From Bifidobacterium breve (lineage in GTDB: Bacteria > Acidobacteriota > Vicinamibacteria > Vicinamibacterales > CAVVIG01): a stretch of 40,073 nt of DNA. Position 1 is the stretch's first letter; every line of letters begins with the position of its first letter. The DNA lies in assembly GCA_943328785.2 (NCBI GenBank), contig CALQBJ020000007.1:1-40073 (forward strand), in the 5' to 3' direction. The notes under the pieces were generated by a model. That model was not told the DNA's origin. It did not search any database and worked only from the letters and a program-made list of their open reading frames with translations. Shown here piece by piece: positions 14,094 through 39,129 of the stretch. The translations under genes were made by a program, and so were the position numbers.

Positions 14094-17000
14094 TTGCTGA
14101 TGAAGACCCTGTCCCGCCTTCTGTTCACGCTTTCCTGCGTGGGGCTCCTTGCCACCGCTGCCTTCGCGCAGACCGATTCCGGCGCCCTCCGCGTGCTCGT
14201 CACTGACGCCACACAGGGCATCGTCCCTGGCGCGACCATCGACGTGATCAACGCGGCGACGAACGACCGCCGCACCGGCGTCACCGACACCAGCGGCTAC
14301 GCGTTCTTCGTGCCTGTGTCGCGCGGCACGTATACCGTGACCGTTGCGCTATCCGGCTTCAGGACCATGGAAGTCGGCGACGTGACGATCGCCGTCAACG
14401 AGCGTCGCTTCCTGACCGTGCCACTGGAGGTCGCCTCGGTGGCCGAGACCGTACGTGTCGTCTCGACGCCAGCCGTCATCCAGACCGAGGACGGCTCCAT
14501 CGGGCAGGTAATACAGGGAGCGGTGGCGGTCGAACTGCCGCTCGCCGGCCGTCGCTATACGGAGCTTGCGCTGCTCGTGCCCGGCACGGCGCCCACCTCG
14601 CAGACGCTCGAGACGCGCGGCCCCGGCTGGTTCGTCAGTAACGGCAATTACCAGACGCAGAATAACTTCGTGCTCGACGGGTTCGACAACAACCAGGGCA
14701 CGACAAACGCCCAGGCGCTGTCGACGCAGGTCGTGCAGCCGTCACCCGATGCGATCGGCGAGTTCAAGGTGCAGACCAACAGCTTCTCGGCGGAGTTCGG
14801 CCGTTCGGCTGGTGCGGTCATCAACGTCTCGCTCAAGTCGGGCAGTAATCGCCTCGCCGGTTCGGCGTTCTACTACAACCGCGACAAGGCGCTGGCGAAC
14901 AAGTCGTGGCTCGCCGAGCAGAACAACCTGCCGAAGGAGAACCTCCAGTGGCACCAGGGCGGCGGCACGCTGGGCGGACCGCTCCGGCGCGACAAGATCT
15001 TCCTGTTCGGGTCGTACGAAGGGTTCAAGCGGACCTTCTCTAACAGCTTCGTCACCAACGTGCCGACGGCTGACCAGAGGAACGGTATCTTTGCCAGCAC
15101 CATCATCGACCCGCTGACAGGCCTGGCCTTCCCCGACAACACGATTCCCCGCGCCCGGTGGGACGCGCTCGGCAGCAAGCTGCTCGGTCTCTATCCCAAC
15201 GCCAACCAGCCCGGTCGCGCCGGCTCGGGTGGCCGCATCATCGAGAACTACGCGGTGCAGCGCGCCGGCAATGAACTGACCAACAAGACCGACCTGCGCA
15301 CCGACTACTTACTGTCGCCAGCGGACCGCCTGATGGTGCGCTACAGCTTCCTGCAGCAGGCCATCAACCGCGACGCGATCTTCCCGGGCCTGGCCGACGG
15401 CGTCGGCAATCAGGGCGAGCAGTACAACCGCAACAACAGCGTCGGCGTCACGTGGACGCGGGTGATCGGCGGCCGCATGGTGAACGAAGCGCGTGTCGGC
15501 TACAACCGCACGAACGCGCGGTTCGCGCACGCCACGGCAGGAGAGCAGACGGCGTCCGCCTTCGGCTTCGTCGGCATGCCGGAGTTCGTGAACACCACCG
15601 GTGGTCTGCCGCTCATCGATCTCACCAACTACAACGACCTTGGCACGCGCAACTTCCGTCCGCAGTTCCAGAAGCCGGTGCAGTGGCAGTTCGTCGACAC
15701 GCTGACGAGAACCTTCGGCACGCACTCGGTGCGCGCCGGCGCCGAACTCCGCCGCAAGCACAACCAGTTGGTCGACATCCAGCGGCGCACGCCGGCCTAC
15801 GGGTTCAGCGGCGCGGTGACGAACAACGACGTGGCCGACCTGTTGCTCGGTCAGGCTCGCTCACTGTCGGCGACGACAGCTCCGGTCGTCGAGTGGGCGC
15901 AGCAGGCGTACTCGGGCTTCATCCAGGACGACTGGAAGGTATCGCCGGCCCTCACGCTGAACCTGGGCCTCCGCTACGAATACGGCACGCCCTACTACGG
16001 CGCCGGCGAGAACAAGAACGTGAACTTCGACTTCACGACGGGCCAGCTGCTCTTCACGACCGAGAACGACAAGTACCTGATCAATCCCGACCGCAACAAC
16101 TTCGGTCCGCGGCTCGGCTTTGCCTGGCAGGCGCGGCCGGAGCAGGTCGTGGTCCGTGGCGGCTTCGGTGTCTTCTACTCGATCGAAGATATGCGCGGCA
16201 GCGAAGGCGTGATTGCGCTCAACCCGCCGTCGCTCGTCCAGGCCTCGGTTAACGGCACCGGCAGCCGCGGCGCAGCGGTGCTGCTCTCGGATCCGTTCCC
16301 GAGCAGCCTGCTCACGTCCTATAACCCGACGACCGTATCGGTGAAAGCGCAGCAGCGCACGCAGCAGGCGGCCACGGTCTATCAGTGGAATCTGGCGTCG
16401 CAGTTCATGCTGCCGGGCAAGACGACCTTCGAGCTGGCGTATGTCGGCAACGCCGGACGCAACCTCCTGTCGAACCTGGCGGTGAACGCCCCGGTCTTCG
16501 GGCTCGACGGCTCGGTGGCCGCGAATCGGCCCTATCCGGGCTGGCTCCAGATTGGCTACAACATCACCGAGAGCCAGTCGATGTATCACGGCCTCCAGGC
16601 GAAGCTCGAGCGCCGGCTCTCGAACGGCTTCTACGCGCTGGCGTCCTACACGTTGGCGAAGGCCGAAGATGAAACCGGTGCGTGGGACACCGGCAACGGT
16701 GTGCAGGCGTACATCAGCCCAGACCTGTCGAACGTCCGCGAGGCGCTCGCGGGCGAGCGCGGTCCGAACGGGCAGTTCCCGCGCCATCGCTTCACCACGT
16801 CGCAGGTGTGGGAGCTGCCGATCGGCCGCGGTCACGCCATCGGCAGCGACATGCCGGCGGCGCTCGATGCGCTGGTCGGCGGCTGGCAACTGTCGACGAT
16901 CTGGACGGCACGAACTGGGTTGCCGGTGAACGTCTCGCTCGCCACGAGCGGCACCGACCCGAACACCGGGCTGGCGTACAGCTTCCTGAACCGCAATGGC

Positions 17001-17354
17001 GGCGTCCTGCGGCCGAACCTGGTGGGCGATCCCAACCAGAACTCCGATGCCTCAACCGACCGCGTGCGCTACCTGACGGCTGCCGCCTACGCGCTGCAGC
17101 CGATCAACACCGCCGGCAATGCGCCGCGTAACTCGGCGTGGGGGCCCGGCCTGTTCACCGTGGACATGAGCCTGGTGAAGCGCTTCCACCTCGGCGGCAC
17201 CCGCGCGGCCGATGCGCGACTGGAAGCCTTCAACCTCACCAACCGCACGAACTTCCAGAACCCGAACGGCACGTGGGGTTCGTCGACGTTCGGTTCGATC
17301 AGCAACGCCAACGACAAGCGCGTCGTGCAACTGGCGGTGCGGTTCACCTTCTAG
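14094..17354 (+). CDS. TonB-dependent receptor, Oar-like with N-terminal carboxypeptidase-regulatory-like domain
   Basis: GALRVLVTDATQGIVPGATIDVINAATNDRRTGVTDTSGYAFF; plug QNNFVLDGFDNN; FQPSPDAIGEFKVQTNSFSAEFGRSAGAVINV-like region; terminal RFTF. Actual start may be 14103. Confidence 0.95.
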   Translation: MLMKTLSRLLFTLSCVGLLATAAFAQTDSGALRVLVTDATQGIVPGATIDVINAATNDRRTGVTDTSGYAFFVPVSRGTYTVTVALSGFRTMEVGDVTIAVNERRFLTVPLEVASVAETVRVVSTPAVIQTEDGSIGQVIQGAVAVELPLAGRRYTELALLVPGTAPTSQTLETRGPGWFVSNGNYQTQNNFVLDGFDNNQGTTNAQALSTQVVQPSPDAIGEFKVQTNSFSAEFGRSAGAVINVSLKSGSNRLAGSAFYYNRDKALANKSWLAEQNNLPKENLQWHQGGGTLGGPLRRDKIFLFGSYEGFKRTFSNSFVTNVPTADQRNGIFASTIIDPLTGLAFPDNTIPRARWDALGSKLLGLYPNANQPGRAGSGGRIIENYAVQRAGNELTNKTDLRTDYLLSPADRLMVRYSFLQQAINRDAIFPGLADGVGNQGEQYNRNNSVGVTWTRVIGGRMVNEARVGYNRTNARFAHATAGEQTASAFGFVGMPEFVNTTGGLPLIDLTNYNDLGTRNFRPQFQKPVQWQFVDTLTRTFGTHSVRAGAELRRKHNQLVDIQRRTPAYGFSGAVTNNDVADLLLGQARSLSATTAPVVEWAQQAYSGFIQDDWKVSPALTLNLGLRYEYGTPYYGAGENKNVNFDFTTGQLLFTTENDKYLINPDRNNFGPRLGFAWQARPEQVVVRGGFGVFYSIEDMRGSEGVIALNPPSLVQASVNGTGSRGAAVLLSDPFPSSLLTSYNPTTVSVKAQQRTQQAATVYQWNLASQFMLPGKTTFELAYVGNAGRNLLSNLAVNAPVFGLDGSVAANRPYPGWLQIGYNITESQSMYHGLQAKLERRLSNGFYALASYTLAKAEDETGAWDTGNGVQAYISPDLSNVREALAGERGPNGQFPRHRFTTSQVWELPIGRGHAIGSDMPAALDALVGGWQLSTIWTARTGLPVNVSLATSGTDPNTGLAYSFLNRNGGVLRPNLVGDPNQNSDASTDRVRYLTAAAYALQPINTAGNAPRNSAWGPGLFTVDMSLVKRFHLGGTRAADARLEAFNLTNRTNFQNPNGTWGSSTFGSISNANDKRVVQLAVRFTF

Positions 17355-17445
17355 CGCCGTTTCGGTTTCGGTGTAGTACGTAGTGTCCGGCTTTAGCCGG
17401 ACTTTCTGGGGTCCGCCTCAAGGCGGACACTACACCGACCTCGAA
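17352..17445 (+). repeat. 94-bp REPIN-like repeat, copy 1
   Basis: Hairpins gtccggct-tt-agccggac and gtccgcct-ca-aggcggac inside outer inverted ends GTAGTGTCCGGC/GCGGACACTAC; about 94% identical (6 differences) to the reverse complement of 35603-35696. Confidence 0.92.
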
Positions 17446-19806: not shown

Positions 19807-21666
19807 TCAGAGGTCGTGCGCGACGGTGGGGGGGAAAGCCGCACGCAGGGCGTTCAGCACCGCCAGGACGTCGATGACCTCCTGGCTGATGGCGCCGCCC
19901 ACTGGACTCAAGTGGCCGGTGGCGGCGAAGGCCATGCCAATGACGCTCAGCGCCATCCCGCCCACGGCGCTCTGGAGTGCGATGGAGCGCATCCGGCCGC
20001 TGATGTGCATGAACTCGTCGACCTTCTCGAGCGAGTTGTCCATCACCACCACGCCCGCCGCTTCGGCGGTCACATCGCTGTTCTGTCCGATCGCCATGCC
20101 GACCGTGGCCGCCATCATCGCCGGGGCGTCATTGATGCCATCCCCGACGTACAACGTCCTGGCCAGCGCGGTCTCCGCGCGGACGATGGCGAGCTTTTCT
20201 TCGGGACTCTGCTGCGCGTGAATGACGGTGATCCCCACCTGCTCCGCGAGATAGCGCACCTCCGACTCGCGGTCGCCGGACACGATCATCACCTTCTGGA
20301 TCTGGTGCCGTGGGCCCAGGTGCTTCACGAACGACAGACTCTCCGCACGAGGCGCGTCCCGAAAGCGCAGGGCCGCCGCGTAGCGCTGGTCGATGGCCAC
20401 CACGCACTCGAGGCCACCGGCGAGTGGCGGGAGTTGGTCGGCGCCAGGCATCTGTTGCGCGAGCAGATTACCCCGACTGGTGACCTGCACCTGACGACCA
20501 TCCACCGTCCCACGCAGTCCCTGGCCCGGCGCTTCGCTCACCTCGGTCACTTCCAACAACGGCAGCCCGGTCTTCGTCGCGGCCGCCAGAATGGCGCGCG
20601 CGAGCGGATGCTTCGAATAGCGCTCCAGGCTGGCGACGAGGCTCAGCACGTCCGGCGGTGAGAAGCCCGGGGCGATCAATTGCTCGGTCAGGGCGGGTTC
20701 GCCGTAGGTGAGCGTCCCGGTCTTGTCGAAGATCGCCGTGCGGCACTCGGCGATCAGCTCGAGCACGACAGGACTCTTCACGATGATCGCCCGCCTCGCG
20801 CACAGGGAAATGGAGCCGATGATCGCGATCGGGATGGCGAGGAGGAGCGGGCACGGCGTCGCGATGACCATGACCGCGAGGAAGCGAATCGGATCGCCCG
20901 TCATCACCCAGGCTGCAACGGCAACCGCCAACGCAATGGGCGTGTAGATGGCACCCAGGCGATCGCCAAGCCGGCGCAGCGTCGGCCGACTGGACTCGGA
21001 CTCGCGCATCACGTTCATGATCTTCGCGTAGCGCGAATCGGCGGCCAGTTGTGTGGTGCGAATCGTCAAGGCGGACTCGCCGTTGATGGATCCCGAGATG
21101 ACCGTCGAGCCACGGGTCTTGGTGATCTGGAACGGCTCGCCCGTCAGGTAGGACTCGTCCATCATGCCGTGGCCATCGACCACAACCCCGTCCACCGGGC
21201 AGATGTCGTGCGGGTAGACCACCAGCGTGTCTCCGACAGCCACCTCCTGCAGACCAACGTCCACAATCTCCGCATGCCGTTTCAGGTGGGCCACCGACGG
21301 CATCCGCTTGGCCAGCGCCGCCAGCACCGAGGACGCGCTGCGCAACGCGTAGCTCTCGAGCGCTTCACCTCCCGCGAGCATCAACACGATGATGGAGCCC
21401 GCCAGATACTCACCCAGCAGCACCGACGTGATGATCGAAATGCCGCCGAGCAGGTCGGAACCGAATTCCCGCTTCAGCAGGTTGCGCAACAGGTCGATGA
21501 GGAGCGGCACACCGCCGATGGCAAGCGTGATCAGCAGCGGAATCCGGGAGACGGCCGGAGCGGCACTGGCACCGAAGCGCAGCGCGAGGTGCGCCAGGAT
21601 CGCCGCAACACAGAGCGCCGCGATGACTGTGGTCTTGTGCTGCCACAGCAGCACGATTCTCCGCAT
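19807..21666 (-). CDS. Heavy-metal translocating P-type ATPase (P1B), TPC motif
   Basis: [43 protein letters not shown]; no N-terminal HMA domain. Confidence 0.92.
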
Positions 21667-21863
21667 GACATCAGCGTAGCGCCGGCGCGAGCGCCGCGCC
21701 ATGGCGTATTGCACAGCGGCGCCTCGCACTCCTGCCCGAACCGATCCGCAGGCTGTTCCGTGGTGACCAGGGAGTCCGCCGAGCGTCCGCATCACCACGA
21801 CCACCATCGGCGGCACTGCCCTGCACATCCTGCAGGGCGACCTGCCGATTCACCTGCGCGTGG

Positions 21864-22535
21864 TCAGCCGATCCCTTCTTGCCGGGGCCGGCGCCAGGCG
21901 AGCCGCGCGCACGTCTCCGCCAGTCCCCACGCGAGCAGCGCACCGCCGAACACCACGCCCCAGAGCTCGCCGGGAATGGCGGCTCGTCCCAGTAGCTCGG
22001 ACGTCCACGGCAGCGACGCCGCTGCGACCTGGATGCCGACGCCGAGGATGACCGCCGCATGGAGGTAGGCGTTGGGCAGCGGGCGCATCCACGTGTGACG
22101 CGACGGATAGGTCAGGAGCAACTGGCCGACGGCCATGAAGTGGAATGCGGCCGCTCGCGTGACATCCAGTGAGTATCCGAACAGCGGCAGGACGCCGAGC
22201 ACGGCGAGCGCGAGCACGGCCTTCATGCCGCCCGCCGCCACAACGTATCGGACCGACGGCCGGTCCAGCAGTGGCGCATTGGCCGGGCGAGGCGGCTGCT
22301 GCATGACCTCCGGTGTGCGGTCGAACGCGAGCGCCAGCGCGGGCACGCCGTCGGTCATCAGATTGATCCACAGGATTTGTGCGGCGGTGAGCGGCAGCAT
22401 CAGCGCCCCGGTGGTGTCACGAAGATCGAGGGTAAAGGCGAGAATGGCACCCGCCGCCACGAGCAGTACTTCCGAGAGATTCGTCGAGAACAGGAAGCGG
22501 AGGAACTTCTGGATGTTCTCGTAGATGCCGCGGCC
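21864..22535 (-). pseudogene. C-terminal part of a P2-type cation ATPase, separated from its N-terminal part by an inversion
   Basis: Minus strand reads GRGIYENIQKFLRFLFSTNLSEVLLVAAGAILAF...QILWINLMTDGVPALALAFDRTPEVMQQPPRP; begins mid-protein at 22535. Confidence 0.9.
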
Positions 22536-23318
22536 GATCTACATCTCGGAGCGGGTGGACAGCGAAGCCGAGTACGTCGGCCTGAAGCGGCCGTTCCGCA
22601 CGCTGGTGAGGTGGCTCTACCCCAGGGCGGACCACATCGTGGCCGTCTCGGAGGGCGTGCGTCAGAGCCTCGGGCGGATGGGCGTTCCGCTCGCACGCAT
22701 CAGCACCATCCACAACCCGGCTGACCTGGCCGAGATCAAGGCCGACGCGCGCCTCGCGGCACACGAGTCGCCGAGCCGGCGGCCGTTCCGGATCGTCATG
22801 GCCGGAAGGCTGACGCGCCAGAAGGACTATCCGACGATGCTGGAGGCGCTCGCCCTGCTGCGGAAGCAGCGCACGCTCGACGTGCGGCTCGTGATCCTCG
22901 GCGACGGCCCCGACCGTCCCGCCCTGGAAGCGAAGGCGCATCAGCTCGGCGTGGCCGACGGCATCGAGTGGTCGGGCTGGTGAAGAACATCCACGCCGTC
23001 ATGGCTCGGTGCGACGTCTTTGCGCTCACGTCGATCTACGAGGGCTTCGCGAATGTGCTGGTCGAGGCGATGGCGTGTGGACTCCCCGTCATCAGCACCG
23101 ACTGCCCCTCAGGACCGGCGGAGCTCCTGGAGGGTGGCACGCACGGTTTCCTGGTTCCTGTCGGGGACGCCGCGGCCCTTGCAGACGCCGTCCACGCCCT
23201 CAGCGAAGACCCCGCGGTCTACGCCGACTACCAGCGGCGCGCGCTCGCCCGCGCCGAGCGCTTCGACGTCTCGATCGCAGGCCAGCACTACCTGACGGTG
23301 CTGACCGGTCACGCCTAG
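22531..23318 (+). pseudogene. C-terminal part of GT4 glycosyltransferase with one frameshift, separated from its N-terminal part by an inversion
   Basis: RPIYISERVDSEAEYVGLKRPFRTLVRWLYPRADHIVAVSEGV...GRLTRQKDYPTMLEAL; frameshift at 22980; then NIHAVMARCDVFALTSIYEGFANVLVEAMACGLPVISTDCPSGP. Confidence 0.9.
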
Positions 23319-23396
23319 CGACGGCCGGCGATCAAGACGTCGACTGCGGTGATGGCGCGTGTTCGACCTCGCCCTGGTGCGCGCCCTGCTCGCGGC

Positions 23397-23515
23397 GTCA
23401 TGGCGCAGTCGCCGCTTGCCTGGATGTGCGTCGTCGTCTACCTTCTGATGGCCACCTGCATGGTCCTGAACCTGTTCATTGCGGTGGTGGTGAGCGCCAT
23501 CCATCCGCGTCCCAA
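23397..23515 (+). pseudogene. Remnant of voltage-gated-type ion transport protein (S6 helix)
   Basis: VMAQSPLAWMCVVVYLLMATCMVLNLFIAVVVSAI resembles the Ion_trans S6 segment; no pore or S1-S4 upstream. Confidence 0.55.
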
Positions 23516-23523
23516 CTACATCC

Positions 23524-23808
23524 ATGACCATCACGCACGACGACAACGGCACAAAAGGGCGCTTCTTCATCGGCGAGCCGCAGGCACCTGACGGACTCAT
23601 GACCTACGTGTGGGCCGGTCCGTCCTCCTTCATCATCGATCACACGGAAGTGGGTGAGCGCCTGGCCGGACAGGGCGCGGGCAAGCAACTGGTGATGGCC
23701 GCTGTGGCCTTTGCCCGCACGCGTCATGTGGCGATCCTGCCGCTGTGCCCCTTTGCCAGGAGCGTGTTCGATCGCGTGCCTGAGATCGCCGACGTGCTGG
23801 CGACGTAG
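23524..23808 (+). CDS. GNAT-family N-acetyltransferase (YjdJ/Acetyltransf_CG type)
   Basis: IIDHTEVGERLAGQGAGKQLVMAAVAFARTRHVAILPLCPFARSVFDRVPEIADVL. Confidence 0.85.
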   Translation: MTITHDDNGTKGRFFIGEPQAPDGLMTYVWAGPSSFIIDHTEVGERLAGQGAGKQLVMAAVAFARTRHVAILPLCPFARSVFDRVPEIADVLAT

Positions 23809-24037
23809 TCGCGTGCCTGGCGCCAGTTGAGGGGCTGATGAAGCCACGCATTACTCTGGGCCGGCACTCGATGACGCTCTTCGCGCCAGGCGGCGTGGCC
23901 ACGTGGCGCTGCCGGTGATGTCCGGCGGAGACACATCCTGAAACTGCTACAGGTTCGCGCAGAATTGCCGTTGCCCTCTGCCCCGCGCATCGGGTGAGGT
24001 CCGAGACACGGCCCACGACGCGCACCGAGAGGCCCAC

Positions 24038-25839
24038 ATGAGCGGACTGTCCACGGCTGACGCCACCGAACGACTCGCCCGCGTCGGGCCGAATGCGTTG
24101 CCCGAGCACGCTCCCGATCCCCTCTGGCGCCGGTTCGTGCGCCAGTTCCAGAGCCCGCTGGTCTACATCCTGCTGTTCGCGCTGGCCTTCGATCTCGTCC
24201 TCTGGCTCTCCGAAGGCGCGCACACCTGGCCCATCGAAGCGAGCGCCATCGGCCTGATCCTGCTGTGCAACGCCCTCCTCGGCCTCTACCAGGAACAGCG
24301 GTCCGAAGCCGCCTTGATGGCGTTGATGGCGCTCGCTGGCGCCCAGGCGTGGGTCCTTCGCGATGGCCGTCTCGTGCGTCTCCCCACACAGTCGCTGGTT
24401 CCCGGCGACGAGGTTCGTCTCGAGGCCGGTGACCGCGTTCCGGCAGACGGCACCCTGAAGGACGCGCGCGGCGCCATGCTGGACGAATCGATCCTCACCG
24501 GCGAATCCATGGCCGTCGACAAGGGCGACGGCGACGAGGCGTTCAGCGGCACTCTGCTCGTCCGCGGCAAAGCCCATCTCGAGCTGACGAGGACCGGTGC
24601 AGCCAGTGCCATGGGCCGCCTGGCCTCCATGCTCAGCGACATCACGGCGGCGAAGACACCACTCGAACGTCGCGTCGATCAGCTCGCCCGCCAGATCGCG
24701 CGATGGGTGCTGGTCCTGGCGGCGGCGCTTGGCCTGCTGGGTGTCCTTGCGGAAGGGGTCGACCGAGCGCCGGAGATGATCATCTTCGCGGTGGCGCTGG
24801 CGGTCGCGGCGGTGCCCGAAGGGCTACCGGCGGTGCTGACCGTCGCCCTTGCCCTCGGCGTCGAGCGCATGGCCAGGCATCGCGCGGTGGTCCGGCGACT
24901 CTCCGCGGTGGAGGCGCTTGGATCGGTCACGGTCATTGCGACCGACAAGACGGGGACCCTGACCGAGAGCCGCATGGATGTCCGGATGATCGACGCGTCC
25001 GATCTGCCGCGCACCCTCACGGCTATTGTGCTGGCCAACGATGCCGATCTGACGACCGGTGCGGGCGACCCACTGGAGTTGGGCCTGCTGCGCCATGCTG
25101 CGGCGAACCGCGTGGACATCGCGCAGGTGCGGCAGGCGCACCCAACCATCTCTGAACGGCCGTTCGACAGCGCCTGGAAGTTCGCGAGGGTCACCGTGCA
25201 GGAGCACGGCCAGCTGGTGAGCTATCTGAAGGGGGCACCCGAGCTCCTGTTCGGCCGCTGCACCTTGTCAGCGGAGGACCGCGATGCCTGGGGGGCGAAG
25301 GCCGAGGCGTACGCCGCAGAGGGATTCCGGGTCCTGGCGGTCGCCTGGGCCGAGGGTGATACCGAAGAGCAGCTCACGCTGCTCGGTCTCGTTCTGTTCT
25401 GGGATCCGCCGCGGCCAGAAGTGCCCGACGCCGTCCGCAAGGCGCAAGCCGCCGGGATCCGCGTCATCATGATTACGGGCGATCATCCGGCGACGGCCCT
25501 GGCGGTCGCACATCTGATCGGCATCCCCGGCGAGCGTGTGCTGACGGGTGAGAATCTGGACGAGTACGAGGGCGAGACGCTGAGCGAGGCGCTCGGCGAC
25601 GTGAACGTCTTCGCACGCGTGCGGCCGGAGCAGAAACTGCAACTCGTGGAACTGCTCCAGGCGCAGGGACAGATCGTCGCGATGACCGGGGACGGCGTCA
25701 ATGATGCGCCCGCGCTCAAGCGCTCGGACGTCGGAGTGGCGATGGGCCGGCGTGGCTCTGACGTCAGCCGGGAGGTCGCGGATCTCGTCCTGCTCGATGA
25801 CAACTTCGCCACGATCGTCGACGCCGTCGCGGAAGGCCG
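24038..25839 (+). pseudogene. N-terminal part of P2-type (Ca2+-ATPase-like) cation ATPase, cut by inversion breakpoint
   Basis: [67 protein letters not shown]; homology stops at IVDAVAEGR. Confidence 0.92.
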
Positions 25840-26169
25840 GCTGTTCCCCATCAATCGTGTGAGCAGGTGCGCGAGGTTCGACCGCGTGAGGAAGCTGAGC
25901 GTCGCGTCCGGCCGCTCGCGGCCGAGCACGGTCGCCAGCTCGAACGCCGCCAGCGGCAGGAACGCGAGCCGGCCAATCCCCTGCATCAGTCGGCCCGTGC
26001 GCAGGCGGTGCACGATGATGTCGGCGGGCAGTTGGTACGCGGTCGTGCTGCGCTGGAGCGTCACGATGACGACGGTGTGCCCCTCGGCACGATAGTGCCT
26101 CGCGAGGGTGCAGACCACCCGCTCTGCCCCGCCGCCTTCGAGGCTGTTGATGACAAACGCGATCTTCAA
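25835..26169 (-). pseudogene. N-terminal part of GT4 glycosyltransferase (TTG start), cut by inversion breakpoint
   Basis: LKIAFVINSLEGGGAERVVCTLARHYRAEGHTVVIVTL...LSFLTRSNLAHLLTRLMGNSRP; TTGA overlap with the upstream gene. Confidence 0.88.
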
Positions 26170-28793
26170 TGCAGCTCGACCCAGCAGCCCAGGTGCCGCA
26201 GATCCGTGTTGCCCGGCTCGGCCTGCGATGGACGAAAGCCGCTCGCCGACGTCAGGCGCAGCGTCGAGACTGTGCGGCCATCAGGGCTGGTCAGTGGCAG
26301 TTCACGTTGCTCGCCTGCCGCCAGCGCCAATTCCTGCCGCGCGCCGTCTACCTCGATCGTCACCGTGTTCGCGACCGCGGCGTTGCGAACAAACAGCGTC
26401 AGCTCGGGTCTGCCTCGGGCGATGACGAGCTGCGCACGACGTCCACCAGCGACCCAGAAGCCGGTTGGTTCCGGATAGGCGTTGTCGTCGAGGAAGAACG
26501 CATCGGCTGCCGGATAGCGCGCGGCTCGACTCGCCAACCCACTCTCGAATCTGCCAGCAGACGACGCGCCGCGGTCCGAGGCGATCGGCTGCAGCTGAGC
26601 CGAGACGACTGCGCGCAAGGCCGCGGCGTCGGCCTCAATCACCAGCGTGCGGGCGCCGACCAGCAGCACCAGCGTCCGGGCCGCGGCGCCGTCTGCGTCA
26701 CCGCCGGCCGCAGCCGGTAACGTCAGGAACGGCAGGCTCGTGTCGCCGACTCGCAACGTCAGCGTGCCTGCGGCGCCGTGTCTGGCGTCGACCAGGACTC
26801 GGTAGCGTCCCGGCGGAACCGCGAGCGCATTGAGCACATGGCTCTGGCGCGATCGCGGGCGTTGCTCATCGGACCGGACCGTCAGGCGGGCGCGCAAGGC
26901 GTCGGCCGAGATGAGCCGGCGCTGGTCGAAGTCCCAGGACCAGCGGTCGTTTCGGGACAACTGACGAAGCAACCCGGTTTCGGATCGCGCGGCACTGATG
27001 CCGCCCCTGCCGTCGATACGCCAGGCCATGGCGAGCCCGATCATCGGCATCCCCGCGATCAGCACGATGACCATCGCGGCCCGCGCGGACAGCGGCCGCA
27101 ACAGTGTCAGCGCTCCCCAGAACGCCGCAGCTACGGCCAGCCAGATCGACGCCTTCGCCAGCGCGATGATCGGTGTATCCGTGAATAAGCTTGGCGCCGC
27201 GCGAGCCAGCAGGAGATCGTCATGCGCCCATTCCAGCCACAGCGCAATCCCGTCGCGAAAGTTGATGAGCAGCCGGCCATCATCCGGTATCCAGAGCAGG
27301 GCCGCAATGAACAGGCTCACGCCAAGTCCGGCCGAGTACAGCATGCGCGTGGCGGCGGAGCCCTCGGTCCACAGCCGCGCGGCGCCGAGTCCGATCACGA
27401 GCGACAGCGGCGCCAGCAGACGGGCGGGGACGCTTGCCCCTCCCCACCACATCTGATACATCGCGACGCTGATCGCGTAGGGAACGATGAGCGCGAGCAG
27501 TTCGAGGCTCCAGCGCCGCAGGCGGAGCGCCGAGAAGATGCATCCTGCCAGCACGAGCCCGTACACCGGCGCATTCGGGATCAGGCCGAACTGCTGATCG
27601 AACAGCACGCCGGGCAGGCCGCGCAGCATGTTGGCCGCGCTCGACTGCGTCATCGCTCCATAGGGCGCCGCGGGATTCGGCGTGCCGTACACGGTGTAGA
27701 AGAACGCGAGCCAGCCGGCCGCACTGATGACTGGCAGCGTCGCGAACAGCACAACCTGACGGGGGCGACGCACGCGCGCCAGGAGCAGGATGGCGGACAC
27801 CGCGGCGAGTGACGCCAGCCGGGTCTGGAGCCACGGCAGCAGGGCGAGCGCGGCACCGGCCGCCAGCCACGCGACCGCACCTGGTGGTTGTGCCCGCGGG
27901 TCAGCACGACGCCGCTCGTCGAGATAGAGCGGTATCAGCCCGATGAGCAGGCACGTGGCCGCGAGTCCGTCCGGGAAGACCTCGGTCGCCAGAAAGAAGA
28001 AGGGCGCGGTCAGCGCGCAGCGGGCCCAGGCGAACCAGGCGGCCGCCGCGTCGCCGGTCAGCCGAAGCGCCAGCCACCAGACGAGCCCCGTGCCGAGCGC
28101 GGCCACGAGCCCCAGGAACGCAACCACGCCAGGATATCCGAAGAGCCACATCGCAGGGGCGATGACCACCGGCAGGCCCGGTGCGTGGATGGAGTAGATC
28201 TGGCCGTTGACGCCGCGCCGCAGGTAGTCGGGCTGCGCGGCCTGCAGCGAGTATTCCAGGTAGTCGCCGCGCCGGTGGTTGTTCTCGATCTGGATGTCGC
28301 CGTCCGTGATGAGGCTCTGGGCGAGGACCAGATAGTGGGGCGAGTCACCGTCAGGGAGCAACGGCGCCAGCCGTACGGCGCTCGCACCGTAGAGCAGCAG
28401 CGCAATCGCCGCAGCGACGACCGGCGCGCGTGACGCGTCGGTGAACCAGCGGCCCTGCACACGCGGCCAGCGCGCCTGAACGACCGCCGCAACCACGCAG
28501 ATCCAGATGAGGCCCGTCAGCGGTCCGGTCCAGAGATACGCAGATGGCGGCAATCGCACCGGCAGCCACGGCAGCAGCAGGATGGCGGAGCCGAACAGTG
28601 GAGACAACTGCGAGCCGGTCAGTCGTGCGGCGCGGACGAGGGCGAAGCAGGCGAAGACGATGAGCGGCAGCCACCACCAGGGTGGCAGAAGGCCGATGCG
28701 AGCCGTCGTGTCGGCGCCAGCGACGAATCCAATGGTGCCGAGTGAACACCACGCCGAGACCCCGGCGCACACCGAGGCGAGTGCGACTCTCAT
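26166..28793 (-). CDS. Large polytopic membrane protein, GT39/PMT-like glycosyltransferase candidate
   Basis: Many TM segments; DGDSPHYLVLAQSLITDGDIQIENNHRRGDYLEY resembles the first loop of GT-C enzymes; C-terminal beta-rich region. Confidence 0.75.
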   Translation of the reverse strand: MRVALASVCAGVSAWCSLGTIGFVAGADTTARIGLLPPWWWLPLIVFACFALVRAARLTGSQLSPLFGSAILLLPWLPVRLPPSAYLWTGPLTGLIWICVVAAVVQARWPRVQGRWFTDASRAPVVAAAIALLLYGASAVRLAPLLPDGDSPHYLVLAQSLITDGDIQIENNHRRGDYLEYSLQAAQPDYLRRGVNGQIYSIHAPGLPVVIAPAMWLFGYPGVVAFLGLVAALGTGLVWWLALRLTGDAAAAWFAWARCALTAPFFFLATEVFPDGLAATCLLIGLIPLYLDERRRADPRAQPPGAVAWLAAGAALALLPWLQTRLASLAAVSAILLLARVRRPRQVVLFATLPVISAAGWLAFFYTVYGTPNPAAPYGAMTQSSAANMLRGLPGVLFDQQFGLIPNAPVYGLVLAGCIFSALRLRRWSLELLALIVPYAISVAMYQMWWGGASVPARLLAPLSLVIGLGAARLWTEGSAATRMLYSAGLGVSLFIAALLWIPDDGRLLINFRDGIALWLEWAHDDLLLARAAPSLFTDTPIIALAKASIWLAVAAAFWGALTLLRPLSARAAMVIVLIAGMPMIGLAMAWRIDGRGGISAARSETGLLRQLSRNDRWSWDFDQRRLISADALRARLTVRSDEQRPRSRQSHVLNALAVPPGRYRVLVDARHGAAGTLTLRVGDTSLPFLTLPAAAGGDADGAAARTLVLLVGARTLVIEADAAALRAVVSAQLQPIASDRGASSAGRFESGLASRAARYPAADAFFLDDNAYPEPTGFWVAGGRRAQLVIARGRPELTLFVRNAAVANTVTIEVDGARQELALAAGEQRELPLTSPDGRTVSTLRLTSASGFRPSQAEPGNTDLRHLGCWVELH

Positions 28794-28910
28794 CCAGCCT
28801 GAATGGTAGTCGAATCCCGATGCGCCAGCAGGGGGCGCGATGGCACAATGCCGGACGTCGGGATGCCAGTTCGCCAGCTCGTCAACTGGCGACATTGCCT
28901 TGGGGGGCCT

Positions 28911-30104
28911 GTGTCTGTCCGTTCCTTCGCGTGCGTCCTCGCGTGCATCGTCACCACATGGGCCGTTGTGGGTGCCCAGGAACCGCCGCGTCCTACGCTG
29001 CGCGTGCCACCACTGGGCGCGGGTCCGTATGTGATGGACACCGCCGAACAACACAACCTCAGGGTGACCGTGATGGCGCGCGGCCTGGTGCACCCGTGGG
29101 CGATCGCCTTCCTGCCCGACGGCCGCATGCTCGTCACCGAGCGGCCCGGGCGGCTGCGCATCATCAGCGACGGCAGGCTGGAGCCGGCGCCGGTGTCCGG
29201 TGTGCCGACGGTCCGCGCCGCCGGCCTTGGCGGCCTCGAGGATATTGCGCTCGACCCGCGCTTTCCCGAGAACCACTTCGTGTACCTCACCTACGTCAAG
29301 CCGGTGGACAGCCAGCGAGGCACACCCGCGCTGGCACGGGGACGGTTCGAGAACGGCGCGCTCGTCGACGTGAAGGACCTCCTCGTCACCGATCCGGGTC
29401 CGGTCGGCTCGTCAGCGGTGAACAGCCGCATCACGTTCGGGCGTGACGGGCTGCTCTACATGTCGGCTGGTGGCAACATCGGCACACTGGCGCAGGAGCC
29501 GGGCAGCCTGCGCGGCAAGATCCTGCGCCTCAACGCTGATGGGTCGGTGCCGAACGACAACCCCTTCGTCGGACGCGCCGGCTACCGTCCGGAGATCGTC
29601 ACGATGGGGCACCGCAACTCGCTGGCGCTGATCGTCCATCCGACAACCGGCGAGATCTGGAACAGCGAGAACGGCCCCAACGGCGGCGACGAGATCAACA
29701 TCATTCGCGCCGGCCGTAACTACGGATGGCCGCTGGTGAGCTTTGGCCGCGACTACCCTGGGCCCCGCATCTCGGAGTATCCGACGCGCGAAGGTCTCGA
29801 GTCGCCGCTCGTCACCTGGATTCCCTCGATCGCCGCGTCGGGCATGGCGGTGTACACCGGCGACCGCTTCCCGGCGTGGAAGGGCCATGTCTTCGTCGGA
29901 GCGATGCGTCTGGGAGAGATCGAAGGGACCGGTCACCTGCAGCGCATTGTGTTCAACGCGAAGATGGAGGAAATCCGCCGCGAGTCGATGCTGACCGAAC
30001 TGCGGCAGCGGATTCGGGAGGTGCGGCAGGGACCTGACGGCCTGCTCTATTTGCTGACTGACGAGGAAGACGGCGCACTGCTGCGCCTCGAACCGGCGCC
30101 GTAG
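28911..30104 (+). CDS. PQQ-dependent sugar (aldose) dehydrogenase, YliI/soluble GDH-like
   Basis: GLVHPWAIAFLPDGRMLVTERPGRLRIISDGRL, LLYMSAGGN, GHRNSLALIVHPTTGEIWNSENGPNGGDEINIIRAGRNYGWPLVS. Confidence 0.92.
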   Translation: MSVRSFACVLACIVTTWAVVGAQEPPRPTLRVPPLGAGPYVMDTAEQHNLRVTVMARGLVHPWAIAFLPDGRMLVTERPGRLRIISDGRLEPAPVSGVPTVRAAGLGGLEDIALDPRFPENHFVYLTYVKPVDSQRGTPALARGRFENGALVDVKDLLVTDPGPVGSSAVNSRITFGRDGLLYMSAGGNIGTLAQEPGSLRGKILRLNADGSVPNDNPFVGRAGYRPEIVTMGHRNSLALIVHPTTGEIWNSENGPNGGDEINIIRAGRNYGWPLVSFGRDYPGPRISEYPTREGLESPLVTWIPSIAASGMAVYTGDRFPAWKGHVFVGAMRLGEIEGTGHLQRIVFNAKMEEIRRESMLTELRQRIREVRQGPDGLLYLLTDEEDGALLRLEPAP

Positions 30105-35602: not shown

Positions 35603-35696
35603 TTCGAGATCGGTGTAGTGTCCGCCGTTAGGCGGACCCCAGAAAGTCCGGCTAAAGCCGGACACTACGTAGTCCACCGACACCGAAACGGCGCTA
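35603..35696 (-). repeat. 94-bp REPIN-like repeat, copy 2 (inverted relative to copy 1)
   Basis: Reverse complement begins TAGCGCCGTTTCGGTGTCGGTGGACTACGTAGTGTCCGGC and matches 17352-17445 with 6 differences and no gap. Confidence 0.92.
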
Positions 35697-36158
35697 GCGC
35701 GAGGCGACCCGGAAGACTCCCCATCCGGCCGATCGCGGCTCATCGGAACCCGGAAGCTTCACGGCTCTCGACGCCCACGCCCGATTCAGCGGCTCTTCGC
35801 CGACCACACGCGTGAGGGTCACCGGATAGACCGTCTGGCCCACCCGGACGCGGGCGTCCGGGTGCGCCGCCGCCGCCGTGGACCAGCGCTTGCCGTCGCA
35901 GTTGCCGCAGCTCAGATGCAGCGTGCCGTCGCTGTCGGACCAGCAGTTGAGATTCAGCGCATGCGGCAGGAGGCCCGTATCGACCTGGACCTGGCAGAGC
36001 GGCACCTGGTTGGCGAACGACCAGTCGGTGACCTTCTCCGTCGCCTGGATGCCGCGCAGGTACACCCCTGGTGTCTGGTCGCATGGACAGGACCAGGCCC
36101 AATAGGAGACCGCCATCACGGGAATGACCACCACCAGCGAGAGAATCAGCTTCTTCAT
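35694..36158 (-). CDS. Membrane-anchored PNPOx/nitroreductase-like hypothetical, similar to the 39126 gene
   Basis: N-terminal TM; DWSFANQVPLCQVQVDTG...LNCWSDSDGTLHLSCGNCDGKRWSTAAAAHPDARVRVGQTVYPVTLTRVVGEE. Confidence 0.65.
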   Translation of the reverse strand: MKKLILSLVVVIPVMAVSYWAWSCPCDQTPGVYLRGIQATEKVTDWSFANQVPLCQVQVDTGLLPHALNLNCWSDSDGTLHLSCGNCDGKRWSTAAAAHPDARVRVGQTVYPVTLTRVVGEEPLNRAWASRAVKLPGSDEPRSAGWGVFRVASR

Positions 36159-36195: not shown

Positions 36196-39129
36196 TCAGA
36201 ATTCGACGCGCATGCCGAGTTGTCCGAGGCGCGCACCGAGCGTCCTGTTGCGCACCCGGAAGTTTGGGCTGCCGAGTATGGCCTGCGTCCGTGCGTCCGC
36301 GTAGGTGTTTCCGGTATTCAGCAGGTTGAACAGCTCGACAAAGAGCTGCACGTGGGTTCCGGCCCGCGTCACACCCTTCGCCGCGCGGAAGTCCCACGTG
36401 GCCCACGCTGGCTGATGATAGGGAAACCGCGGCAGCAGACGGCCGTCGGCGACCGGTCGGTCGGGCTGCAGTCCGTCGTTCACGACACCGTCGCCGTTGA
36501 CATCGGTGGCGCTGTAGACCGGGAACGCGAGCCCCGATCCAGCCGACCATGTCGAGGCAAACGTGATGTCCCCCGGCAGCGTCGCCACCAGGTACGACTT
36601 GAACTGATGACGCTGATCCAGCTCGTTGATGCCGTAATCGGCCTCGAGGTCGAACGGATCGGACGGGCCGAAGACCGCTTCGGTGTCGCGCTCGGTCGAG
36701 CCGTTGCCCATGCTCTTCGCGAGGGTGTAGTTCGCGTAGAACTGCCACCGGTTCTTCAGCGGTCTGGTGAGTGACAGCGTCAGCGCCTGATAGCGTCCGT
36801 GCCCGAAACTGGCGAGGGCGTTCGCCTGCGCAATCGTGGCGTCGGGCCGGCCTGCGGCCAGAAGGCCCACGCCCCGGCCGAACTGATCGACACGCGACGG
36901 CGCCGCCAGGTTGCGATCCCACGCCGACGCGCGGAACCCGCCGATCCGCAGGTTCCGGGAGTCGCTCTGCATGTAGCCGGCTTCGAACGACAGGCCGGCC
37001 ATCTGCCTGGTGAGCGAGCCGCTGAACTGCATCACCCGCGGATTCTGGAACGCCGGATCGACATACGAGATCGCGGGCGGTCCAAGAAGCGCCGCAAGGT
37101 TCGAGCCCGGCGCAATGGCCGATGGGAGTACCGCCGGAAATGTCACGCCCACGCGGGACACCGGAACGAAGAGCGTGGTGTTGCTGACACCGGCGCCGCG
37201 CATCGGGAAGTAGATCAGCGGCGTGCGTCCGTAATACAGGCCTGCGGAGGCCTTGATGAGCGTGCGTCCGTCAGGCCACTGATAGGCCAGCTCACTACGT
37301 GGCCCCCAGTTGTTCCGATCGTTCGGAATACCCTGCGGCACTGGCGCGTAGGTCAGCTGAACCTGGTTGCCAGAGCGGGTCGGTTGGCCAACCGGCACCT
37401 GCACGCCGGCAATGCCCGCCTGCGGCTGCGGGTTGATCTGCAGGTCGTAGCGGAGGCCAACGGCAATCGTCAGCCTCGATGTCGGCGTGATGCGGTCCTG
37501 CACGTAGGCGGCCGCCTCGTGCTGCCAGAAGCTGTCGAGGAGTGCGGCCCCTTGCGCGGTGTAGCCGTTCAAACCGAAGTTCTGGACATAGAGGAGCGGC
37601 TGGCGCGCGACGAACGACTCGAGCGTCGGAAAGACGTAGCCGCCGTTCAGTCCCAGCGCAAACGCGTTGTTGCGCATGTTGAACGCGTTGTAGTCGGCGC
37701 CGAAGCGGATGTCGTGCCTGCCGCGTGTGTGCACCGCACTCTCCGACACCTGGTAGCGGTACATGTCCTGGGTGCCCGGGAGGAACAGTGCGCTGCCGAA
37801 CGTGCCGGTGTCCGAGATCTGCACCTGTGGTCCGCTCGATTGCGCGTCTCGCGGCCGCGTCTCACGCGAGGTCTGCACCTTGGTTTCGAGTTGCAGCCCC
37901 TCGCCCAGTGGGCCGCTCAGGCTCGCGACGACCGAGGTTCCCTGGTTGCGGTAGGTCTCGAGGTTGGTGGTGGCCTGGCTGAGCAGCAGCCCACCGCCGG
38001 CCGTGTTGTCGCCGTAGGCGCGCGAGAACGTCCCACGGACGGTCAGCCGCTGACGCGGCGTGATCGCGTGATCGAGTTTCGCGAGCAGTGCCGTCACGTT
38101 GTCGTGCCGGGGATACTGGCCTTCGAGCCCCCCGAGATCGGCAATCCCGAGTTCCGGCACCGCGACACCGCGAACACTCCGCGCAAACTTCACCGTCAGC
38201 GGCGTCGTCTGGCGCTGCAGGTCCACGGCACCGAAGTAGAACGTCCGGTTCGTCACGAGCGGACCGCCCAGGCTTCCCCCGGCAAGGTGCCGAACGAGAC
38301 CGGCCGGCGCATTCCCGAATGCGTCGGTCGAGGCGAGGGTGTGATGACGCAGCGAGTAGCTGGCCGAGCCGTGCCGCGCGTTGGAGCCCGATTTCGTCAC
38401 CACGTTCACCAGCCCGCCGTTGGACCTGCCGGACTGGACACCCAGCCCCGCGGCGGTGACCTCGAACGCCGACACCGCCTCGAGAGGGATCGTGAAGTTC
38501 TGCCGTTCGATCGATCCGAAGAACTCGCCGAAGAAATTGTTTGTGAAATCGGCCCCGTCGACATTCAGCGCGAGGTAGTCGCCAGGCTGGCCGGCCACAC
38601 GAAAGGTGCCTCGAGTGCCGGTGATCGCTTCTGCGGTGGGAGACAGCAGCGCGAAGCCGCGGTAGTCGTGGCCGTTCAGGGGAAGACTCGAAATGGCGCT
38701 GGTGTCGAAGGCGGCGCCCAGCGCGGGCGCGGCATCTCCTGCCGCGGTGATGGCCAGTGTCTCGGTGAGCCCGGCGAGGCTCATCACGAGGTTCACGGCC
38801 AGCGCCTGGCCGACGCCCAACCGCAGTGGCTCACTCGACGCGCCCGCAAAGCCGGACCGCTCCGCCTGTACGACGTAGACGCCCGGCGACAGGAGCGGTG
38901 CCGAGAACCGGCCCGCGTCGTCGGTGACCCTCACCCGCTCGACACCAGTGGTGCTCTCGCGCAGGGTGACGGTGACGCCCGCGAGCGCCGCCCCCGTCTG
39001 GTCGCGAATCGTGCCGGCCACGTCGCCGCGGTCGAGCGACTGCGCGTCTACCAGCGGGACAGCGGCCACGAGCACGGCGAGCGCCACCCGCACGAGGAGT
39101 GCGGCCCATCGGAGTCTGTATTCCGTCAT
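36196..39129 (-). CDS. TonB-dependent receptor, Oar-like with carboxypeptidase-regulatory-like domain
   Basis: GTIRDQTGAALAGVTVTLRESTTGVERVRVTDDAGRFSAPLLSPGVYVV; LNVDGADFTNNFFGEFFGSIERQNFTIPLEAVSAFEVTAAGLGVQSGRSNGGLVNVVTKSG; terminal MRVEF. Confidence 0.95.
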   Translation of the reverse strand: MTEYRLRWAALLVRVALAVLVAAVPLVDAQSLDRGDVAGTIRDQTGAALAGVTVTLRESTTGVERVRVTDDAGRFSAPLLSPGVYVVQAERSGFAGASSEPLRLGVGQALAVNLVMSLAGLTETLAITAAGDAAPALGAAFDTSAISSLPLNGHDYRGFALLSPTAEAITGTRGTFRVAGQPGDYLALNVDGADFTNNFFGEFFGSIERQNFTIPLEAVSAFEVTAAGLGVQSGRSNGGLVNVVTKSGSNARHGSASYSLRHHTLASTDAFGNAPAGLVRHLAGGSLGGPLVTNRTFYFGAVDLQRQTTPLTVKFARSVRGVAVPELGIADLGGLEGQYPRHDNVTALLAKLDHAITPRQRLTVRGTFSRAYGDNTAGGGLLLSQATTNLETYRNQGTSVVASLSGPLGEGLQLETKVQTSRETRPRDAQSSGPQVQISDTGTFGSALFLPGTQDMYRYQVSESAVHTRGRHDIRFGADYNAFNMRNNAFALGLNGGYVFPTLESFVARQPLLYVQNFGLNGYTAQGAALLDSFWQHEAAAYVQDRITPTSRLTIAVGLRYDLQINPQPQAGIAGVQVPVGQPTRSGNQVQLTYAPVPQGIPNDRNNWGPRSELAYQWPDGRTLIKASAGLYYGRTPLIYFPMRGAGVSNTTLFVPVSRVGVTFPAVLPSAIAPGSNLAALLGPPAISYVDPAFQNPRVMQFSGSLTRQMAGLSFEAGYMQSDSRNLRIGGFRASAWDRNLAAPSRVDQFGRGVGLLAAGRPDATIAQANALASFGHGRYQALTLSLTRPLKNRWQFYANYTLAKSMGNGSTERDTEAVFGPSDPFDLEADYGINELDQRHQFKSYLVATLPGDITFASTWSAGSGLAFPVYSATDVNGDGVVNDGLQPDRPVADGRLLPRFPYHQPAWATWDFRAAKGVTRAGTHVQLFVELFNLLNTGNTYADARTQAILGSPNFRVRNRTLGARLGQLGMRVEF

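Follow-up and report, generated by a model that had tools for sequence, protein, structure and literature searches.

A 3.3-kb inverted segment divides a P2A-type ATPase gene and a GT4 glycosyltransferase gene in an Acidobacteriota draft genome

The window analyzed here is the whole of a 40,073-bp contig (C7) from a draft genome of 3.83 Mb in 312 contigs. Two of its genes are each present as halves on opposite strands. The 5′ part of the first, an ATPase gene (24038–25839, plus strand), matches the Pfam families E1-E2_ATPase, Hydrolase, and Cation_ATPase_N and encodes the N-terminus, M1–M4, and the A, N, and P domains, including the motifs TGES, DKTGT, and TGDGVNDAP. It has no stop codon at the breakpoint, and its reading frame runs on as nonsense to 26095. 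The 3′ part (21864–22535, minus strand) encodes M5–M10 with the Cation_ATPase_C domain (PF00689) and is joined to the 5′ part in relatives. Read together, the halves retain all three of these motifs along with PEGLP in M4 and NxxTD in M6, and the Listeria Ca2+-ATPase lmo0841 (LMCA1) is the solved protein closest to them (E 1.1e-106, given for the 5′ part). By these sequence features the joined product is a P2A (SERCA/LMCA1-like) ATPase, predicted to be of the Ca2+ pump type. Its nearest named relatives come from Acidobacteria MAGs, among them RIFCSPLOWO2_02_FULL_65_29 and 67_21. In the present arrangement M5–M10 are lost and, judging from what is known of the family, the enzyme should not work. 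Contig C84 encodes a further P2-type ATPase whose frame is intact (879 aa, 38%), and this enzyme could compensate for the loss.

The second divided gene encodes a GT4 glycosyltransferase. Its 5′ part (25835–26169, minus strand) covers positions 2–75 of the Pfam Glyco_transf_4 profile and ends at the breakpoint; at its other end, the TTG start codon overlaps the TGA that terminates the gene upstream. The 3′ part (22531–23318, plus strand) covers positions 119–169 of the same profile and carries a Glycos_transf_1 domain split over two frames. The Pfam assignments therefore do not place the two halves of either gene in different families, an outcome that would have spoken against a common origin of the halves.

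A small GNAT acetyltransferase gene (23524–23808, plus strand; Acetyltransf_CG, PF14542, E 3.2e-20) lies between the breakpoints as an intact passenger. Upstream of the glycosyltransferase gene in the restored order is a large ORF without a Pfam match (26166–29276, minus strand; 1036 aa as called), and the broken ATPase gene adjoins a second P-type ATPase gene with an intact frame (19807–21828, minus strand; E1-E2_ATPase, Hydrolase), whose length and domain content suggest a P1B-like enzyme. Elsewhere in the window, 14094–17354 and 36196–39129 encode, on opposite strands, two large beta-barrel proteins of the outer membrane (OMP_b-brl_4) that carry CarboxypepD_reg domains, and each gene has downstream of it a copy of a palindromic dispersed repeat of about 95 nt. 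The two copies (17351–17445, plus; 35603–35697, minus) are inverted relative to each other (94%). The repeat, GTAGTGTCCGGCTTTAGCCGGAC...GTCCGCC..GGCGGACACTAC, has a predicted fold of -47.9 kcal/mol (z -4.7) and 37 matches in the genome, and other family members contain many related copies that have diverged further. Rfam and tRNA searches gave no match to it. It looks like a REPIN/MITE-like element located beside OMP-type genes.

The original prediction held that both genes had been divided by one inversion of about 3.3 kb and that flipping the segment would restore each of them. Our analysis confirms the observation. Both pairs of halves break at the same two points, and when the segment from 22531 to 25839 (3309 bp) was reversed by script the halves rejoined there exactly to the base, giving frames continuous with homologues on both sides. 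No base is lost at either joint, and neither contains a gap or an N run. The restored ATPase passes from ...IVDAVAEGR to GIYENIQKFLRF... in a single open frame that extends from MSGLSTADA... to ...RRPRQEGIG (CDS of 2466 nt without the stop, 822 aa). The restored glycosyltransferase reads ...LTRLMGNSRP-IYISERVDSE... across its joint, and the frame stays open as far as GIEWSGW. After the flip the main genes between 19.8 and 28.8 kb all lie on the minus strand, again as predicted. A coding-state decoder given no hint of the breakpoints located them at 22535/22536 on the left and 25858/25859 on the right (0-based).

Restoration is thus complete for the ATPase and partial for the glycosyltransferase, whose frame is still disrupted near 22980 (22966–22983), about 450 bp away from the left breakpoint, by the loss of a single base that the original prediction had also noted. 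The lost base is consistent with TGGGTG having been read as TGGTG. This frameshift is independent of the inversion and may reflect either further damage to the gene or an error in sequencing; because of it, flipping the segment back would not by itself give a working glycosyltransferase.

Comparison with relatives gives the rearrangement a direction. Six related genomes carry an intact ATPase gene to which the flipped gene aligns without a break at the junction, at 74.5–85% nucleotide identity, the best alignment (L032, from G011) reaching 85.4% over 2467 columns. The joint is ungapped in most of these alignments, with small gaps there in G040. Against G011, G014, G040, G029, G049, and G041 the unflipped window aligns as two pieces that abut and lie on opposite strands, whereas the flipped sequence forms one block with each. 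Full-length homologues of the ATPase are common in GTDB genomes. Since the ATPase is one block in relatives, the intact form is ancestral and the split form derived. For the glycosyltransferase we found no close orthologue in relatives, but more distant homologues (about 32–37% identity) match the flipped protein over residues 2–255/260 without a change of frame, and in one of them (L042) the match to the C-terminal piece follows on immediately. Homologues therefore do not stop at the breakpoints, as they would if the halves were naturally separate genes. A search of 27 family genomes found the exact left junction in the genome under study and in none of the 26 others; six look-alikes with two mismatches, in three of those others, look like chance matches.

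Neither ATPase half contains a stop or a frameshift. Both halves show the same constraint, with dN/dS of 0.14–0.20 against four relatives, values that fall inside, or a little above, those obtained when the relatives are compared with one another (0.09–0.23). Equal constraint without lesions implies that the inversion is recent, polymorphic, or artefactual, and that the split gene is not an old pseudogene.

The breakpoints share five bases exactly as first described, CGGCC at 22531–22535 and its reverse complement GGCCG at 25835–25839, and the position of each break is ambiguous within them. This microhomology exceeds the length expected by chance, with a probability of 0.0097 that two random points in the flipped contig share at least 5 bp. 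Longer or imperfect inverted repeats were sought at the breaks and none was found beyond CGGCC, and local alignment of the 120-bp breakpoint contexts showed no better inverted similarity than random pairs (P 0.68). Two other candidates were rejected. The left joint contains the near-palindrome GTAGAT-N10-ATCTAC, which has no counterpart at the right, and it was dismissed as a recombinase site because it is made up of one Ile-Tyr codon pair from each gene, in direct orientation before the inversion. The copies of the 95-bp repeat at 17351 and 35603 were dismissed as inversion arms; their distances from the breaks are 5 kb and 10 kb, and they belong to a dispersed element.

The arrangement could in principle be an artefact of assembly, scaffolding, or amplification, in which a 3.3-kb piece was misoriented and no cell carries the inversion. 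The genome is a fragmented draft, most related records are MAGs, local assembly errors are known from metagenome assemblies (PMC7111523), and the frameshift lies close to the left joint. Chimeras formed during multiple displacement amplification (MDA) are mostly inverted, arise within 10 kb, and are often joined at 2–21 nt of homology (PMC1855051). Such chimeras, however, show one inverted joint accompanied by deletion of the sequence in between (PMC1855051), whereas the present locus has two exact joints and no deletion. In the 61 stretches scanned with the decoder (1.197 Mb, 31% of the assembly), exactly one stopless head-on junction of plus- and minus-strand genes was found, that of the present locus. 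The decoder recovered 18 of 60 spiked-in inversions (about 30%) and gave one weak match in 0.71 Mb of other high-GC loci, near the end of a Thermus locus. Joins of this kind are therefore not widespread in the assembly, although it could contain a few others. To our knowledge, a 5-bp overlap is far shorter than any assembler k-mer, and the sampled contigs contain no N runs. Base-exact joints without loss or N runs argue against amplification or scaffolding errors, and we regard the artefact, which was among the readings originally proposed, as an improbable explanation that still carries some weight.

A reversible DNA-inversion switch, turning the cation pump and the glycosyltransferase on and off together, was also proposed and fares considerably worse. 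The inversion is precise and reciprocal, it splits or joins both genes at once, and, in the part of the literature consulted, invertons often lie near cell-surface genes (PMC11892184). As in invertons operated by serine or tyrosine invertases, the orientation of the segment alters whether genes are intact. Unlike invertons, the locus has no recognizable recombinase sites at its ends, where inverted repeats of that kind were not found, and no recognizable invertase beside it; its breakpoints interrupt the coding sequences of two unrelated genes, of which one bears a further lesion. No recombinase was found among the scanned proteins of the contig. A genome search gave no match to the resolvase/invertase family PF00239 and hence no serine recombinase, while five matches to tyrosine recombinases (PF00589) are all on other contigs and none is tied to the inversion. 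The ATPase and glycosyltransferase genes are not neighbors in the relatives examined, and the matches listed within the assembly included no further copy of the locus in the opposite orientation. Taken together with the 5-bp homology, the dissimilar breakpoint contexts, the frameshift that survives the flip, and the junction unshared with other family genomes, these points make a two-gene switch very unlikely. We give even less credence to population-level flipping through the palindrome-like 5-bp core, which would make this an intragenic two-gene switch unlike known invertons.

Of the three readings originally offered, a recent microhomology-mediated inversion is thus the one best borne out, and we consider it likely that the locus records a one-off 3.3-kb event, recent or still segregating, that inactivated both genes and regulates neither. 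As in a reciprocal inversion, short inverted homology lies at both breaks with no bases lost, and relatives keep the ancestral orientation while the derived one is confined to one lineage among the genomes searched, as the ATPase side shows. We hypothesize that two breaks arose 3.3 kb apart, one in the P2A ATPase gene and one in the glycosyltransferase gene, and were joined at the inverted CGGCC microhomology by illegitimate end joining or template switching. A single reciprocal inversion, recent in the lineage or segregating in the sampled population, would then be carried by cells in which the cation-pump and glycosyltransferase genes were both cut and their functions presumably lost, with no regulation involved. 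The search of the genome for a Ku gene gave no match, which counts against this reading. Short-homology inversions in Salmonella likewise join at short inverted homology and need no dedicated recombinase, but in that chemostat study every inversion that was verified had 12 bp of homology or more, and the candidates with 7 and 9 bp failed (PMC3411829), so that 5 bp is unusually short. Our literature search returned little on microhomology inversions in bacteria or on intragenic invertons.

The truncated cation ATPase and truncated glycosyltransferase gene calls at this locus should not be taken as novel proteins. If the arrangement proves artefactual, the public record contains an assembly error that merits correction. 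If it is real, it would represent a clean case of a microhomology-scale inversion caught soon after breaking two genes in an uncultured lineage of Acidobacteriota.
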